Positions 5,998 through 58,617 of a stretch of 64,000 nucleotides of DNA are shown piece by piece. Made by a program: the position numbers and the translations under genes. The notes under the pieces are model-generated. The model did no database searches. It saw only the letters and a program-made list of their open reading frames with translations, and was not told the origin of the DNA. Position 1 is the stretch's first letter, and every line of letters starts with the position of its first letter. The DNA comes from Methylohalomonas lacus (GTDB lineage Bacteria; Pseudomonadota; Gammaproteobacteria; Methylohalomonadales; Methylohalomonadaceae), in assembly GCF_024808875.1 (NCBI RefSeq), contig NZ_JANUCT010000007.1:1-64000 (forward strand), read 5' to 3'.

Positions 5998-6948
5998 ATG
6001 AGCGTACCGCAGCAGGCATTCGCTCGTTCCGTGCGGGACGAGTTGCAGGGCGTTATCAGTGAAGCCAATGGGATTATCCTGGGTAAGGAACATGTCATCC
6101 GGCTGGCACTGACCTGCCTCATTGCCCGTGGCCACCTGCTGATCGAGGACCAGCCCGGCGTCGGCAAGACGACCATGGCACACATGCTGGCCAAGACCCT
6201 GGGGCTGAGCTTCCAGCGCATCCAGTTCACCAGTGACCTGCTGCCGGCCGACATCCTCGGCGTGTCGATCTACAACCGCGAATCATCGGCGTTCGACTTC
6301 CACCCCGGTCCCATCTTCTCGCAGGTAATCCTGGCCGACGAGGTCAACCGCGCCACGCCGCGTACGCAAAGCGCGCTGCTCGAGGCGATGGAGGAATACC
6401 AGGTCACCACCGAGGGCGAAACACGCCCGCTACCGAAACCGTTTTTCGTCATTGCCACGCAGAACCCGGCCAACCAGATCGGCACCTTCCCGCTGCCGGA
6501 ATCGCAGCTGGACCGTTTCATGATGCGTATCGAGCTCGGTTACCCGGATGCTCGCGCCGAGCGCGAACTGCTGGCCGGCCGCAGCCGGCGTGAACTGCTC
6601 GAGGACATGCAATCGGTGCTGCAACCGGAACGCCTGCTGCACATGCAGCAGGAAGCCACCAATATCCACGTTGCCCCGGCGCTGCTCGACTACCTGCAGG
6701 ACCTGCTCGAATTCAGCCGCGAATCACGTCACTACGTCAGCGGGCTGTCGCCACGCGCCGGCCTGGCCATACTGCGTTGCGCCCAGGCCTGGGCCTTGCT
6801 GCACGGCCACGCCGAGGTGCTGCCCGACGATATCCAGGCGGTGCTGCCCAGCGTGATCGGCCACCGTCTGCAATCCAGCCTGGAACAGAACGATCCCGGT
6901 GCCGGCGCCCTGGCACGCAATCTGATCGAGCAGGTGCCTATTCCCTGA
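5998..6948 (+). CDS. MoxR-family AAA+ ATPase
   Basis: A 316-residue AAA+ ATPase. Walker A GVGKTT at 54-59, Walker B VILADEVNRA at 109-118, sensor-1 IATQNP and the MoxR segment GTFPLPESQLDRFMMRI. MoxR ATPases act as chaperones for assembly of metal- or cofactor-containing complexes, normally with a VWA or DUF58 partner encoded beside them. Here the DUF58 and transglutaminase genes follow, but 489 bases of repeats separate them from moxR. The start ATG at 5998 follows the purine-rich GCCAAGAG stretch. Confidence 0.92.
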   Translation: MSVPQQAFARSVRDELQGVISEANGIILGKEHVIRLALTCLIARGHLLIEDQPGVGKTTMAHMLAKTLGLSFQRIQFTSDLLPADILGVSIYNRESSAFDFHPGPIFSQVILADEVNRATPRTQSALLEAMEEYQVTTEGETRPLPKPFFVIATQNPANQIGTFPLPESQLDRFMMRIELGYPDARAERELLAGRSRRELLEDMQSVLQPERLLHMQQEATNIHVAPALLDYLQDLLEFSRESRHYVSGLSPRAGLAILRCAQAWALLHGHAEVLPDDIQAVLPSVIGHRLQSSLEQNDPGAGALARNLIEQVPIP

Positions 6949-49383: not shown

Positions 49384-49523
49384 ACCCGGCCGGGGTAAAT
49401 GGCTGGCTACAACCAGACTGCTGGTTTCCAGTAACCATGTGGTCGTAACCAGCCCACCATGGCAGCTCGCTAATTAAAATATAACTTACTGAATATAAAG
49501 GTAATTAATGCATGGTGCCGACA

Positions 49524-49539
49524 TGGCACGGGAACTGCA
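49524..49539 (+). promoter_or_regulatory. Sigma-54 (-24/-12) promoter for pqqA
   Basis: TGGCACG-GGAA-CTGCA fits the consensus TGGCACG-N4-TTGCW in all but one core base. The GG (49525-49526) and GC (49537-49538) dinucleotides are exactly ten bases apart. Transcription would start near 49550, giving a leader of about 50 bases before the pqqA ATG. An inverted repeat GGTGCC-GACAT-GGCAC overlaps it at 49514-49529. Confidence 0.75.
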
Positions 49540-49601
49540 TTATTCAAGACAGACGCTGATTAAAGCGTAGACATACAAATCTCAGAACAGGAGTGATTAT
49601 C

Positions 49602-49676
49602 ATGAAATGGGCAACCCCGTCTTATAACGACATCCGCTTTGGTTTCGAAGTGACGATGTACATCAACAACAAGTAA
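49602..49676 (+). CDS. pqqA: PqqA, precursor peptide of pyrroloquinoline quinone
   Basis: A 24-residue peptide from ATG 49602 (Shine-Dalgarno CAGGAG nine bases upstream) to TAA 49674-49676. It reads MKWATPSYNDIRFG followed by FEVTMYINNK. PqqA peptides have W near position 3, P, R-G/F-G and the invariant Glu-Val-Thr-x-Tyr, whose Glu and Tyr are fused by PqqE to make PQQ; here Glu16 and Tyr20 occur with the right spacing. No pqqBCDE genes follow: a terminator at 49697-49723 and a lipoprotein gene come next, so this is a stand-alone copy. Confidence 0.9.
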   Translation: MKWATPSYNDIRFGFEVTMYINNK

Positions 49677-49696: not shown

Positions 49697-49723
49697 AAAA
49701 ACCCCGCCCCGGCGGGGTTTTTT
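49697..49723 (+). terminator. Rho-independent terminator after pqqA
   Basis: AAAACCCCGCC at 49698-49708 pairs perfectly with GGCGGGGTTTT, loop CC, followed by a T-run to 49723. It isolates the short pqqA transcript. Confidence 0.92.
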
Positions 49724-49874: not shown

Positions 49875-50342
49875 ATGCAGATTCACAAGACAATCCGCCA
49901 CGCGCTGATCGCCGCGGCACTGGTAACGCTGGCCGGTTGTGCCGGCCACGGCATGAACAAGGAAGGCATTGGCACGCTCGCCGGCGCCGGTCTCGGCGGC
50001 TGGGCCGGTTCCACCGTCGGCAGTGGTAGCGGCCAACTGGTCGGCGTCGCCGTCGGCACACTGGCCGGCGCCATGATCGGCGGCTCGGTCGGCCGTAGCA
50101 TGGACGAAGTCGACCGCATGAAGATCAGCCGGGCACTGGAAACCAGCCCGTCCTATTCCGAAACCCGCTGGCGCAATCCGGATTCGGGTGCCGCCTACAG
50201 CGTGACCCCGCAACCGGCCTACGAGACCGCATCCGGCCCATGCCGGCCCTACGTGGTCGACGCCTATATCGATGGCCGGCCAACCGAGGTCGAGGGCACC
50301 GCCTGCCGCCAGCCGGACGGCGCCTGGGTGACCCGTTCGTAA
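49875..50342 (+). CDS. Glycine-zipper outer-membrane lipoprotein
   Basis: 155 residues with a lipoprotein signal (LVTLAGC, Cys near residue 22) and strong Shine-Dalgarno TAGGAGG. Residues 32-75 form the 17-kDa surface antigen/glycine zipper 2TM motif (GTLAGAGLGGWAGSTVGSG seen in part, GTLAGAMIGGSVG), followed by a soluble region with two Cys (CRPYVVD, ACRQPDG) that may be disulfide-linked. Related proteins are SlyB/Rickettsia 17-kDa type envelope lipoproteins. Confidence 0.85.
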   Translation: MQIHKTIRHALIAAALVTLAGCAGHGMNKEGIGTLAGAGLGGWAGSTVGSGSGQLVGVAVGTLAGAMIGGSVGRSMDEVDRMKISRALETSPSYSETRWRNPDSGAAYSVTPQPAYETASGPCRPYVVDAYIDGRPTEVEGTACRQPDGAWVTRS

Positions 50343-50407: not shown

Positions 50408-52510
50408 TTACAGGAAATCATGCCGGATGCTGATACCCGCGTAGGCGTTGATTTCCGGGGCCGGTTCGTAGAAACGACTCGACGTATCGTTGATTCGAAT
50501 ATTAGAGAAATATTCCTTATCGAAGATATTGTTGATACCTATGAAGGGCTCAATCTGCGTGTCTCCCACACGGGTCGAATAACCGGCGCGCAGGTTGGAA
50601 ACGCCGTAGCCGGCAACTTCCGTGTTATTGGTATCGTCCGTAAATAATTCGCCAACCAGCAGCGTATCCCAGACTCCATAAAAGCCTGACGGATGTTCAT
50701 AAGCCAGTTCAATCTGGCCAAAGTGCTTGGGGATCCCGGGCAAACGATTACCATCAAAATTGGCCTGCACGGGCGGCGTAGTGAACCCGGTTGATATTTC
50801 CGGCCTGAAAGTATCGTACTTGAAATCGGAGTATGTATAGGCAAGTGAAGCCGTCAGATTGGCCGTGGGCTGCACGCTTAACGCCAATTCAAAGCCTTCC
50901 CGGGTGGTCTCGCCAGCATTATTGAACAGGTTCTGATCGACGTCGTCGACAACCAGCTCATCCTCACCATCGATACGGAATACAGCAGCATTATAGGTAA
51001 AGCCATGCCACTGCGGCACTGCCCCCTTGATGCCGATTTCATAATTGGTGGCCGTCTGTGCATTCAGACTGGTATTAAAACCACCCGAACCGGCAACGTT
51101 ACTGAACTCGGTGGTGGACGGCGTTTCAAACGAGCGTGAGACGTTACCGTAGATGTTGAAATTACGAATCGGCGACCAGAGCAGTCCAACCAGCGGACTG
51201 ACCTCCTCGTAGTCAACCTTGCCGGAATCATCGCCATCAGACAGAAACTTGTCATCGACATCGAATTCGACCTTGTCGTAGCGGATGCCGGTCGTCAGCG
51301 TGATGGTGTCGGTCAGATACTGTTCGTTCTGTGCAAATAGACCGATACTGCTGACATCTTCCTCCTGGTCCAACACCAGGGCGCCACGTTGACCGCCCAA
51401 CAGATTGTTGAAGTTCTGACGATCATCTTGCTGGGACTCGATATCAAAACCGGTTGTGAAACGATTGTTCGCGCCCTTGAAAGTATACTGCGCACCACCC
51501 CCAACAAAGAAACGATCGAATGCAACCTGCCCTCCCGTGCCTGCGCCGACACCCGGACCGAACGGCAGGCTGTTATCGAAGTCCGTGAACACGTAGTAGT
51601 TGCGCAGCTTTATTTCATGCTGTGGCGCCAGATCCTTGCGATAGACAAAACCAAGGCGCTGCTCTTCCTTACTCTCACCGGTATTCAACAGATCCGCACG
51701 ATCCCTGGCTTGCTTGCGATCCTCGCGCACTTCTTCAATCGTCAGTCCGCCCGGATCATTGGCGCGGGGCGAGTCAGAGAAGTTGATGATCGTGGTCAGA
51801 TCAGATGTCTCATCTATGTCGTACACAAGTTTGGCGTTGCCGATGATGCTTTCGGTCTCGGAATGATCGCGGTAACCGTCAATCTCGTAGCGGCCGATAT
51901 TGAACAGGTAATTGAGATCACCCTTCTGACCGCCCGTTTTCAGGTTGTACTTGTGAAAACCATAGCTGCCATAGGAATAGCGACCTTCGACAAACGGATC
52001 CGCTGGTCCCTCCTCCGATATGATATTGATGACACCGCCCGAGGAGGCGCCGTACAGCGATGATGACGGACCGCGTATTACCTCGATGCGCTCAGCCGAG
52101 GCCAAGTCGATGGTATCGATATTACCTTGCCCGTCCGGCAGGGTCTGCGGTATGCCATCGACAATGATCTTGATACCACGAATACCGAAATCCGCGCGTG
52201 CCCCGAAACCGCGAATGGCGATGCGCAGATCCTGGGCGAAGTTGTAGCGATTCAGCATGAACACACCCGGGATCTTGGTAAGGGATTCGTCCAGGCCGAG
52301 TTGCTGGGTGCCGCGCTGGATATCGTCCTTGCCGACCAGGTCGATGGCGTAGGGCACCTTGTTGATGGGTGTCTCGACGCGCGGCGATGTAACGGTAACC
52401 TCGTCGAGTTGCTCGGTCTCGCTATCGGTCTGGGCCGACAGTGCCAGTGGCAGGCCGCTCATTACCAGCGCCACCCCGGCACCGGTTAAACCATGACGGT
52501 GAATTTTCAT
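50408..52510 (-). CDS. TonB-dependent outer-membrane receptor, YncD/PqqU-like
   Basis: 700 residues with signal peptide (to about 26, ..LALSAQT), TonB box region LDEVTVTS, plug domain and a 22-strand barrel ending in Phe-Leu. By eye it follows E. coli YncD closely: AQDLRIAIRGFGAR, GIRGIKIIVDGIPQTLPDGQG, DGYRDHS, DPGGLT, SFETPSTTEFS, GNRLPGIPKH and FDKEYFSN..YEP. E. coli YncD has been assigned as the PQQ receptor PqqU, and pqqA lies 730 bases away. PQQ as ligand is therefore plausible but not proven; an iron chelate is the alternative. Shine-Dalgarno GAGAGGGG. Confidence 0.85.
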   Translation of the reverse strand: MKIHRHGLTGAGVALVMSGLPLALSAQTDSETEQLDEVTVTSPRVETPINKVPYAIDLVGKDDIQRGTQQLGLDESLTKIPGVFMLNRYNFAQDLRIAIRGFGARADFGIRGIKIIVDGIPQTLPDGQGNIDTIDLASAERIEVIRGPSSSLYGASSGGVINIISEEGPADPFVEGRYSYGSYGFHKYNLKTGGQKGDLNYLFNIGRYEIDGYRDHSETESIIGNAKLVYDIDETSDLTTIINFSDSPRANDPGGLTIEEVREDRKQARDRADLLNTGESKEEQRLGFVYRKDLAPQHEIKLRNYYVFTDFDNSLPFGPGVGAGTGGQVAFDRFFVGGGAQYTFKGANNRFTTGFDIESQQDDRQNFNNLLGGQRGALVLDQEEDVSSIGLFAQNEQYLTDTITLTTGIRYDKVEFDVDDKFLSDGDDSGKVDYEEVSPLVGLLWSPIRNFNIYGNVSRSFETPSTTEFSNVAGSGGFNTSLNAQTATNYEIGIKGAVPQWHGFTYNAAVFRIDGEDELVVDDVDQNLFNNAGETTREGFELALSVQPTANLTASLAYTYSDFKYDTFRPEISTGFTTPPVQANFDGNRLPGIPKHFGQIELAYEHPSGFYGVWDTLLVGELFTDDTNNTEVAGYGVSNLRAGYSTRVGDTQIEPFIGINNIFDKEYFSNIRINDTSSRFYEPAPEINAYAGISIRHDFL

Positions 52511-55698: not shown

Positions 55699-57192
55699 TT
55701 GCGACCACCTGCCCTGCTACAACGCTATACGCTGCGCACCGCGCTACTGTTATTCGTCCTCATCCCGTTCGTGCTGCTGATGGGGGTCGGCGGTTATTAC
55801 AGCCTGCAGCAACTGGAGCAGCAGGTCGAAAAACGCATGCAGGAAGACATCGAGCTGATTGCCCGTGCCATCCGCCTGCCGCTGAGTCATGCTCTCGAGC
55901 GCGGTCGCATTGGCGGCATCGAGCAGGCACTGGCCTCGGCGTTTCACATCGACCGCGTCTACGGCGTTTATGTTTATGACGAAAACGGCAAGCAGATCGC
56001 GGCCAGCGGCACGCGCGATGCGCAGGTACCGAGCGATCGCGCCGCCGAAATCGCTTCCACCGGCGGCCTGCAAAGCGAGTACGACGAGGCCGGCGGCCAG
56101 CAGATCTTCTCGTACTTCCTGCCGCTTACCGACAGCGGCGGCCGTATCAGCGGGCTGCTCCAGGTCACCCGTCGCGGCAGTGATTTCCAGACCTACGTCA
56201 ACGAAGTACGCATGGAGGTCCTCATGGGGCTGGGCATTACCGCCCTGGTGCTGACACTCATCGTGTTCTTCGGTCATTACGGTGCCATCGGTCGCTACCT
56301 GCGCAGCATGGAAAACAGCATGGCGCGTATTGGTGCCGGCGAAAGCGAATTACGCGTCCCCGAGGAAGGGCCGGCAGAACTCAGCACCCTGAGCCACGGT
56401 ATCAACAAGATGCTCGATCGCATTCATGCCTCGCAGCAGCAGATCGAGCAGCAGCGTGAACGCGAGCTCGAATTGCGCCTGCGCCTGCAGCAATCGGAAA
56501 AGCTGGCGGCCATCGGCCGGCTGGCCTCCGGCGTCGCTCACGAACTGGGCACGCCCCTGAGCACCATCGATGGCAATGCGCAGCGGCTACTGCGGCGCGA
56601 CGATCTGCATGAGCGCCAGCGCCAGGCCATCGAGCAAATGCGCGGCGAGGTACAGCGCATGGAAAAAATCATCCACCAGCTGATGGACTTCGGCCGGCGC
56701 AATCCGCTCCAGCAACGACCGGTACGGGCCGCCACACTGGTCCACTCGGTACGCGATCAGTGTCAGCGCGATATTGAATCCGGTGCCGTCGACATCGAGT
56801 TACTCGGCGACAACCCGGGTCCGCAGGTCGCCGTGGATTCAATGCGCATTGAACAGGCGCTTGGCAACCTGCTGCGCAACGCCATCCAGGCGGCGAGCAG
56901 CAGGGTCAGGGTGCAATGGACAAGTACCGATGAGACGGTTGTTTTCACCGTCGAGGATGACGGCCCGGGTATCGACAGTGAACACATGTCACGACTGTTC
57001 GAGCCGTTTTATACGACCAAGCCCGTGGGCGAGGGTACCGGCCTCGGTCTGGCCGTGGTGCATGCAGCAGTCAATGATCACAACGGTCGTATCGAAGTGG
57101 ACACCAGCCCCGATCTTGGCGGGGCACGCTTTTGCATCTATCTGAACGAATATATCGGCAGCGAGAATGCTGCGGAACACGAGGTGGTATGA
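55699..57192 (+). CDS. Membrane sensor histidine kinase
   Basis: 497 residues from TTG 55699. Helix 1 (about 13-33), a periplasmic sensor region of roughly 140 residues, helix 2 (about 173-193), HAMP linker, HisKA with phosphoacceptor His281 in SGVAHELGTPLST, and an ATPase domain with EQALGNLLRNAIQA, EDDGPGI and GTGLGLAVVH. Orthodox kinase for the next gene, three bases downstream. The signal is unknown. Confidence 0.92.
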   Translation: MRPPALLQRYTLRTALLLFVLIPFVLLMGVGGYYSLQQLEQQVEKRMQEDIELIARAIRLPLSHALERGRIGGIEQALASAFHIDRVYGVYVYDENGKQIAASGTRDAQVPSDRAAEIASTGGLQSEYDEAGGQQIFSYFLPLTDSGGRISGLLQVTRRGSDFQTYVNEVRMEVLMGLGITALVLTLIVFFGHYGAIGRYLRSMENSMARIGAGESELRVPEEGPAELSTLSHGINKMLDRIHASQQQIEQQRERELELRLRLQQSEKLAAIGRLASGVAHELGTPLSTIDGNAQRLLRRDDLHERQRQAIEQMRGEVQRMEKIIHQLMDFGRRNPLQQRPVRAATLVHSVRDQCQRDIESGAVDIELLGDNPGPQVAVDSMRIEQALGNLLRNAIQAASSRVRVQWTSTDETVVFTVEDDGPGIDSEHMSRLFEPFYTTKPVGEGTGLGLAVVHAAVNDHNGRIEVDTSPDLGGARFCIYLNEYIGSENAAEHEVV

Positions 57193-57195
57193 GTC

Positions 57196-58617
57196 ATGTC
57201 AGACGACGGCGATAAACAGACCGCGAACATACTAATCGTCGAGGACGACGAAGCCTTGCGGAGCCTGCTTGAAGAGGAACTCGGCGACGCCGGCTACCAG
57301 GTTAGCAGCGTCATGGATGCCGAAAGCGCCTGGTCACATCTGCAGCAACACCCGGTCACGCTGGTCTTGAGTGACTTGCGACTGCCCGGCGCGGATGGCA
57401 TCGAACTGCTGCTCAAGAGCAAGCAGCTGGCCTCACCGCCCGGCTTCATCATCATCACCGCCTTTGGCACTGTCGAGCAGGCCGTCGATGCATTGAAACA
57501 GGGGGCAGACGACTTTCTTACCAAGCCGTTGAAACTCGATCATCTGCGCCTCAGTGCCGAGCGTGTGATCCAGACCAAGCGCCTGCAGGATGAAGTCCGC
57601 CACTACCGCAAGTTATTGGCCGAGGAAGGCTTTCACGGCATGGTCGGGCGCAGCGAACCGATACACAAACTGGTCGACAATATCCGCCAGATCGCCCGTG
57701 CGGCCGGACCGGTCCTGATCATCGGCGAAAGCGGTACCGGCAAGGAGCTGGTTGCGCAGGCGGTACACAAGGAAAGCGAGCGTGCCGACAAACCCTTTGT
57801 CGCCGTCAACTGTGCCGGTATACCGCCGGAACTGCTGGAAAGCGAATTGTTCGGCCACGTCGCCGGGGCCTTCACCGGCGCGCAAAAGGCCCGCAAGGGC
57901 CTGTTCGCCGAGGCCGACGGCGGCACCCTGCTGCTCGACGAAATCGGCGAGATGCCCCTGGAGATGCAGTCGAAACTGCTGCGTATCCTGCAGGACGGTC
58001 AGATACGGCCGGTCGGCGCGAACCGCGAGGTCGCCGTTGACGTGCGCATCATTGCGGCAACCAACCGCTCGCTGGAACAGGAAGTCAGTGAAAAGCGCTT
58101 TCGCGAGGACCTCTATTACCGCCTCGAAACCTTTACGCTCAAGGTGCCCGCACTGCGCGATCGCGGCGACGATATCGAACTGCTGACCGCGCACTTCATT
58201 AACCGCTTCAACGCGCACCTGCGCAAACAGATACACGGCATTCGCCCGGCGGCACTCGAGCGCCTGAAAGGCTACAGCTTTCCCGGCAACGTGCGCGAAC
58301 TTTCAAACGCCATCGAACGTGCGGTCACCTTCTGTCAGAAAGAGGAAATCGATGTCGACGATCTGCCGGAACGTCTGCGTGCCAGCCAGGCCGGCCAGGC
58401 CCGCAACCAGTCACTGGAGGATAATGTCGGCGACGGCGGCCACCAGCTGCTGAAGGGTAACGAGTTGCCGACGCTGGAAGAACTGGAACAGCGCTACATC
58501 CAGTATGTGCTGGATCAGCTCGACGGCAACAAGCGCCGGGCAGCGGAATTGCTCGGTATCGGCCGGCGCACGCTATACCGGCGGCTGGAAAACGAGTCTG
58601 TGCCGGAATACGACTGA
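57196..58617 (+). CDS. Sigma-54 dependent response regulator (NtrC family)
   Basis: 473 residues. Receiver domain with phosphoacceptor Asp60 (LVLSDLRLPG), AAA+ domain with Walker A GESGTGKE at 177-184, the sigma-54 contact loop GAFTGA at 224-229 and Walker B LLLDEIGEMP, and a Fis-type HTH at the C-terminus (NKRRAAELLGIGRRTLYRRL). It would activate -24/-12 promoters; one such promoter lies 116 bases after its stop codon, and another precedes pqqA. Confidence 0.95.
   Translation: MSDDGDKQTANILIVEDDEALRSLLEEELGDAGYQVSSVMDAESAWSHLQQHPVTLVLSDLRLPGADGIELLLKSKQLASPPGFIIITAFGTVEQAVDALKQGADDFLTKPLKLDHLRLSAERVIQTKRLQDEVRHYRKLLAEEGFHGMVGRSEPIHKLVDNIRQIARAAGPVLIIGESGTGKELVAQAVHKESERADKPFVAVNCAGIPPELLESELFGHVAGAFTGAQKARKGLFAEADGGTLLLDEIGEMPLEMQSKLLRILQDGQIRPVGANREVAVDVRIIAATNRSLEQEVSEKRFREDLYYRLETFTLKVPALRDRGDDIELLTAHFINRFNAHLRKQIHGIRPAALERLKGYSFPGNVRELSNAIERAVTFCQKEEIDVDDLPERLRASQAGQARNQSLEDNVGDGGHQLLKGNELPTLEELEQRYIQYVLDQLDGNKRRAAELLGIGRRTLYRRLENESVPEYD

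Follow-up and report, generated by a model that had tools for sequence, protein, structure and literature searches.

A stand-alone pqqA gene with a σ54-type promoter and paired dyads, and a two-component system that probably activates pqqA genes in gammaproteobacteria

The window (the whole 64,000-nucleotide stretch analyzed here, from contig C7) carries a stand-alone pqqA gene preceded by a σ54-type promoter and two copies of a dyad symmetry. We consider it very likely that this element is a functional pqqA, forming a one-gene transcription unit in a small σ54 regulon, that a kinase-regulator pair encoded on contig C3 is the activator of this regulon, and that the several pqqA copies serve precursor dose. 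The bacterial setting of PQQ supply is poorly understood, and because one particular combination of regulator, DNA site, and sigma factor recurs across many gammaproteobacterial families, the question is directly testable; the pqqA switch could also be put to use in PQQ production and in work on methanol and lanthanide biology.

The window pqqA and the other PQQ genes of the genome

The gene (positions 49602 to 49676, plus strand; 75 nt) encodes a 24-amino-acid peptide, MKWATPSYNDIRFGFEVTMYINNK, which scored 45.6 bits against TIGR02107 (cutoff, 20) and 42 bits against PF08042 (cutoff, 21.1). The residues of its Glu-x3-Tyr motif are E16 and Y20, the cross-link pair, and the identification as PqqA, proposed in an earlier note from the letters alone, is thereby confirmed. 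A ribosome-binding site, AGGAG (49589 to 49593, plus strand), lies 8 nt 5' of the ATG, and the unit is predicted from folding to end at an intrinsic terminator (49697 to 49722, plus strand), a G+C-rich hairpin followed by T's (folding z, -4.7), in agreement with the strong terminator that the note had described. Its further claim that this pqqA is transcribed separately probably holds as well.

On its 5' side, the gene is flanked by pyrK (dihydroorotate dehydrogenase electron-transfer type) and, on its 3' side, by a gene for a small glycine-zipper lipoprotein (49875 to 50342), followed by a TonB receptor gene on the minus strand. Since none of 80 retrieved loci containing a pyrK relative had a PqqA match, we rejected a conserved position of pqqA behind pyrK and take this position to be private to the lineage.

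The genome (2.76 Mb, 99% complete) contains four pqqA genes in three units: the window gene, a tandem pair on contig C12 (32.8 to 33.0 kb), and a copy on contig C3 (142.4 kb) that heads pqqC, pqqD, and pqqE. With pqqB also on C3, 8.5 kb from this pqqA-pqqC-D-E cluster, PqqB, C, D, and E are all encoded in the genome, and none of the four genes is found within the window; for PqqF (TIGR02110), only weak M16-type matches below the cutoff were obtained. The earlier note had suggested a genome-wide search for further pqq genes and had named a lack of both PQQ genes and PQQ-dependent dehydrogenases as speaking against its reading; besides the genes listed above, three PQQ alcohol dehydrogenases scored over the family cutoff, so that the genome provides for PQQ synthesis as well as PQQ use and the refuting case does not arise. 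One of the dehydrogenase genes sits within what looks, on visual inspection, like a xox/mxa (xoxF/mxa-type) methanol oxidation cluster.

Two further observations concern the C3 cluster. The gap between its pqqA and pqqC (locus L006, pqqA at 6472, pqqC at 6200) contains a G+C-rich inverted repeat, which could end most transcripts after pqqA and so yield more precursor than enzymes. Genes that read by eye as a tetrahydromethanopterin-type C1 pathway (L332, 2830 to 5683) adjoin the operon and suggest a methylotroph-like lifestyle.

Promoter and dyads at pqqA units

Judged against the consensus TGGCAC-N5-TTGC, the site TGGCACGGGAACTGCA (49524 to 49539, plus strand) has its GG (-24) and GC (-12) elements at the fixed spacing of a σ54-dependent promoter. 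Upstream, on the same strand, lie dyad 1 (TGGCT-GGCTAC-AACCA; 49400 to 49415), which matches 9 of the 10 defined positions of TGGTT-N6-AACCA and is a likely activator site, and, 22 bp after it, the exact dyad 2 (TGGTT-TCCAGT-AACCA; 49422 to 49437). Both promoter and dyads had escaped the earlier note. The other units carry σ54-type promoters too (TGGCATGCGTTCTGCA on C12 and TGGCACGGTTCTGGCA on C3), and at all three, dyads of the form TGGTT-N6-AACCA stand 95 to 157 bp further upstream.

Genome-wide, there are four exact dyads: one at each of the three pqqA units and a fourth at C19:6168, inside an RND transporter gene, which we took for chance and rejected as a regulon site. Dyads with one mismatch (74 in the genome) are too common to define a regulon and were left out of its definition. 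A scan of 309 kb of sequence from this genome, including the dehydrogenase and regulator loci, found a dyad combined with a σ54 promoter (the composite) at the three pqqA units only; its absence from all three dehydrogenase loci led us to reject the PQQ dehydrogenase genes as coregulated targets. The pqqA heading pqqC-D-E, by comparison, has the same promoter and upstream dyad as the stand-alone copies, which bears on the earlier proposal that a separate pqqA lets the cell set precursor supply without changing the enzymes. That proposal was half right: extra copies would add dose, but, with the operon copy on the same switch, they would do so within one regulon rather than under separate control, and precursor and part of the enzymes would rise together.

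The arrangement recurs in other gammaproteobacteria. Among 369 gammaproteobacterial genomes, 50 carry pqqA, many in several copies, and 81 pqqA units with sufficient upstream sequence were scored over 350 bp each. Of these units, 50 have a σ54 site scoring at least 14 within 55 to 165 nt ahead of the start, compared with 1.5 units in dinucleotide shuffles and 1 on the reverse strand, where sites anywhere in the 350 bp were counted. When the palindromes upstream of these σ54 promoters were counted without supervision, TGGTT-N6-AACCA ranked first, occurring in 13 genomes. The dyad-plus-promoter composite is present at 37/81 units, in 25 genomes, often with two dyads exactly 22 bp apart; this spacing, equal to two helical turns, was seen in 26 of 40 dyad pairs lying within 60 bp of each other, and 20 rounds of shuffling produced no such pairs.

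The kinase-regulator pair and competing explanations

Several σ54 activators of the genome were considered as the partner of these dyads. The one that tracks them is the NtrC-type response regulator of a pair on C3 (about 98.2 to 101.2 kb; regulator, C3:99761-101194; L274, 4227 to 5753 and 5762 to 7198), with receiver (PF00072), σ54-activation (PF00158), and Fis-type helix-turn-helix (PF02954) domains all over their cutoffs and with the gene for a membrane histidine kinase (HAMP/HisKA/HATPase) just upstream. Orthologues of the regulator (49 to 67% identity; next best matches after them, 44%) occur in 30 of the 50 pqqA genomes but in just 1 of the 319 others, and that one (G311, 78% complete) has pqqB and pqqC on the same contig. 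Every genome with both dyad and promoter at pqqA (25/25) has the regulator orthologue and kinase, and the dyad was found in 0/19 analyzed pqqA genomes without the regulator. Counted by unit, dyads with at least 9/10 matches precede 41/58 units in regulator-bearing genomes versus 0/23 in regulator-free ones (shuffles, 1.2/81); the Fisher p value of the association (about 2.5e-8 per unit) is uncorrected for ancestry, and the shared ancestry of the genomes means that such values overstate independence.

Gene order points the same way. The pair adjoins pqqA, divergently, in G085, G119, G163, G173, G208, G070, G234, G028, and G170; in G131 it is located immediately upstream of pqqA. In the genome studied here, it is beside no pqqA but about 41 kb from the operon copy on the same contig. 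Its surroundings match the order seen in G163 (ABC transporter, pqqA, kinase, regulator, SRPBCC protein, NADH dehydrogenase) minus the central pqqA, which suggests that pqqA was moved or lost there and now stands elsewhere with its switch; as each copy would bring its own switch, extra copies could sit anywhere in the genome. The ABC genes beside the pair look like transporter genes from PQQ-dependent alcohol systems (TIGR03864 and TIGR03861, both below cutoff). The regulator orthologues share a conserved recognition helix (LGITRMALRYRM-type), and every one read has GAFTSA or GAFTNA in place of GAFTGA as its σ54-contact loop (L274, 5762 to 7198, and orthologues).

Against the pair as activator count this loop variant and, in the genome studied here, its distance from any pqqA; in addition, by the thresholds used, five regulator-bearing genomes (G008, G028, G121, G159, and G170) lack the composite. 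G008 has a dyad with a 7-base spacer. G159 (2.6 Mb; L141, L168 to L172, and L195) carries nine pqqA copies and a regulator of 54% identity, with the composite at none of the copies.

Most likely, then, as far as sequence comparison can tell, the C3 two-component system acts via σ54 to turn on pqqA expression. The membrane kinase would sense a signal and phosphorylate the regulator, which would bind the paired dyads, located about 100 to 160 bp ahead of the -24 element, and activate σ54 RNA polymerase to open each pqqA promoter, so that one switch would drive all three units. As for the signal, alcohol, lanthanide, and quinoprotein demand are guesses. PqqA is consumed at one molecule per PQQ, and extra stand-alone copies would therefore increase the dose of precursor compared with that of the enzymes, whose genes are single copy. 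A wider proposal, which may hold but on which we would not count, is that this is a dedicated two-component system with a regulon of essentially pqqA genes alone, that σ54 switches the disposable precursor in many gammaproteobacteria, and that demand (for instance, PQQ, alcohol, lanthanide, or empty quinoproteins) is sensed at the membrane.

Promoter and dyads could be real and yet answer to another σ54 activator, for which the genome offers two AcoR-like proteins (C6:59151-61151 and C1:20370-22337) and the NtrC-type regulator of the window (57196 to 58617). The latter, part of a second kinase-regulator pair (55699 to 58617), is merely 7.5 kb from the window pqqA but just 40% identical to the C3 regulator. 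Alcohol sensing by an AcoR-like activator would fit, and one-component activators of this type do stand directly upstream of pqqA in G025 (L224, 1441 to 3498) and G302 (L157, 3 to 1364); these two genomes, however, lack both the two-component regulator and the dyad. Moreover, full-length orthologues of the C6 type (at least 45% identity) occur in few of the dyad-bearing genomes, compared with 25/25 for the C3 pair, and were too rare for us to retain C6:59151 as the pqqA regulator. We regard control by one of these other activators as unlikely. The AcoR-like neighbors in G025 and G302 possibly represent a second σ54 route to pqqA; σ54-like sites also occur in the regulator-free genomes G025, G107, G283, G302, and G342.

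Other readings concern the stand-alone gene itself. That its product has a role outside PQQ synthesis, such as lanthanide handling, is very unlikely in our view: the xoxF/mxa-type cluster would suit such a role, and two orphan pqqA genes of Methylorubrum extorquens are lanthanide responsive, with a suggested role in uptake (PMC11317620), but the window peptide retains the full PqqE substrate pattern, and the gene has its switch in common with the operon copy. Least probable of all is a functionless leftover duplicate. The fourfold presence of pqqA, two changes in the leader half of the window peptide (E4A and A7S), and the lineage-private position (0/80 pyrK-relative loci) could be read in this way; against it, the unit is intact from its two dyads and promoter through the ribosome site and E16/Y20 to the terminator, and most codons that differ between this and the other copies do so silently (2 to 7 silent versus 2 to 3 changing). 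The reading that we prefer remains a working pqqA under the C3 pair.

Known systems and the neighboring receptor

A stand-alone pqqA is by itself ordinary, since multicopy and orphan pqqA genes are already known from methylotrophs, namely, Methylophilaceae and Methylorubrum (PMC4109929; PMC11317620; Ge et al. 2015, cited there). As in the present genome, several pqqA copies are described there, some apart from a single pqqB-E set; the copies respond differently to conditions (PMC4109929; PMC11317620), and PqqA supply is reported to be rate limiting in Methylovorus, with PqqA also named as the step that limits a producer strain (cited in PMC11317620). As far as consulted, these papers describe neither a σ54 promoter nor an activator, unlike what we find at pqqA here. 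In Azospirillum brasilense, exaA is under σ54 and LuxR-type control (Singh et al. 2017, cited in PMC12826043), a likeness in that σ54 controls a gene of PQQ-dependent alcohol oxidation; as cited there, however, the target is a dehydrogenase and the partner is of the LuxR type, and pqqA of that species depends on the ECF factor RpoE6 (PMC12826043). The Pseudomonas pqqFABCDE operon is controlled by AgmR/ErbR, likewise a response regulator over PQQ synthesis genes but one that controls a whole operon and is not described as a σ54 activator in that paper (PMC12997753). In domain content, the C3 pair resembles AtoSC and the NtrC family (HAMP/HisKA/HATPase kinase; receiver, σ54-activation, and Fis-type regulator) but differs from AtoC in its score (394 bits against the AtoC cutoff of 714), its GAFTSA/GAFTNA loop, and its tie to pqqA. 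The open-access literature searched on pqqA copies or on σ54 and pqq yielded no description of pqqA under σ54 control, and two σ54 regulon surveys do not name pqq in their main text. The shared σ54 switch and its link to one kinase-regulator pair thus appear to be undescribed in the open-access literature searched.

Finally, the earlier note had seen no pqq neighbors of the window gene. This stands for pqqB to pqqE, all of which are on C3, but may need qualification for the TonB-dependent receptor of the YncD/PqqU family (50408 to 52510, minus strand) encoded 0.7 kb away. PqqU (YncD) is a TonB-dependent PQQ importer (PMC12124388), of which this receptor, assigned from profiles and structure-sequence homologues, is a full-length homologue (E values of 3e-113 to 6v81 and 9e-113 to 9c4o); it nevertheless scored 458 bits where the PqqU NCBIfam equivalog cutoff is 1200, and most of the PQQ-binding residues are changed. 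Among K274, R304, R365, and R536, only R365 is kept (K274 is Glu, R304 falls at a gap, and R536 is Gln); Q84 is kept as well. Uptake of PQQ or a related compound is a plausible function on these grounds. In G131, a receptor 49.6% identical to this one is encoded near the kinase-regulator pair (L327, 1359 to 3338).
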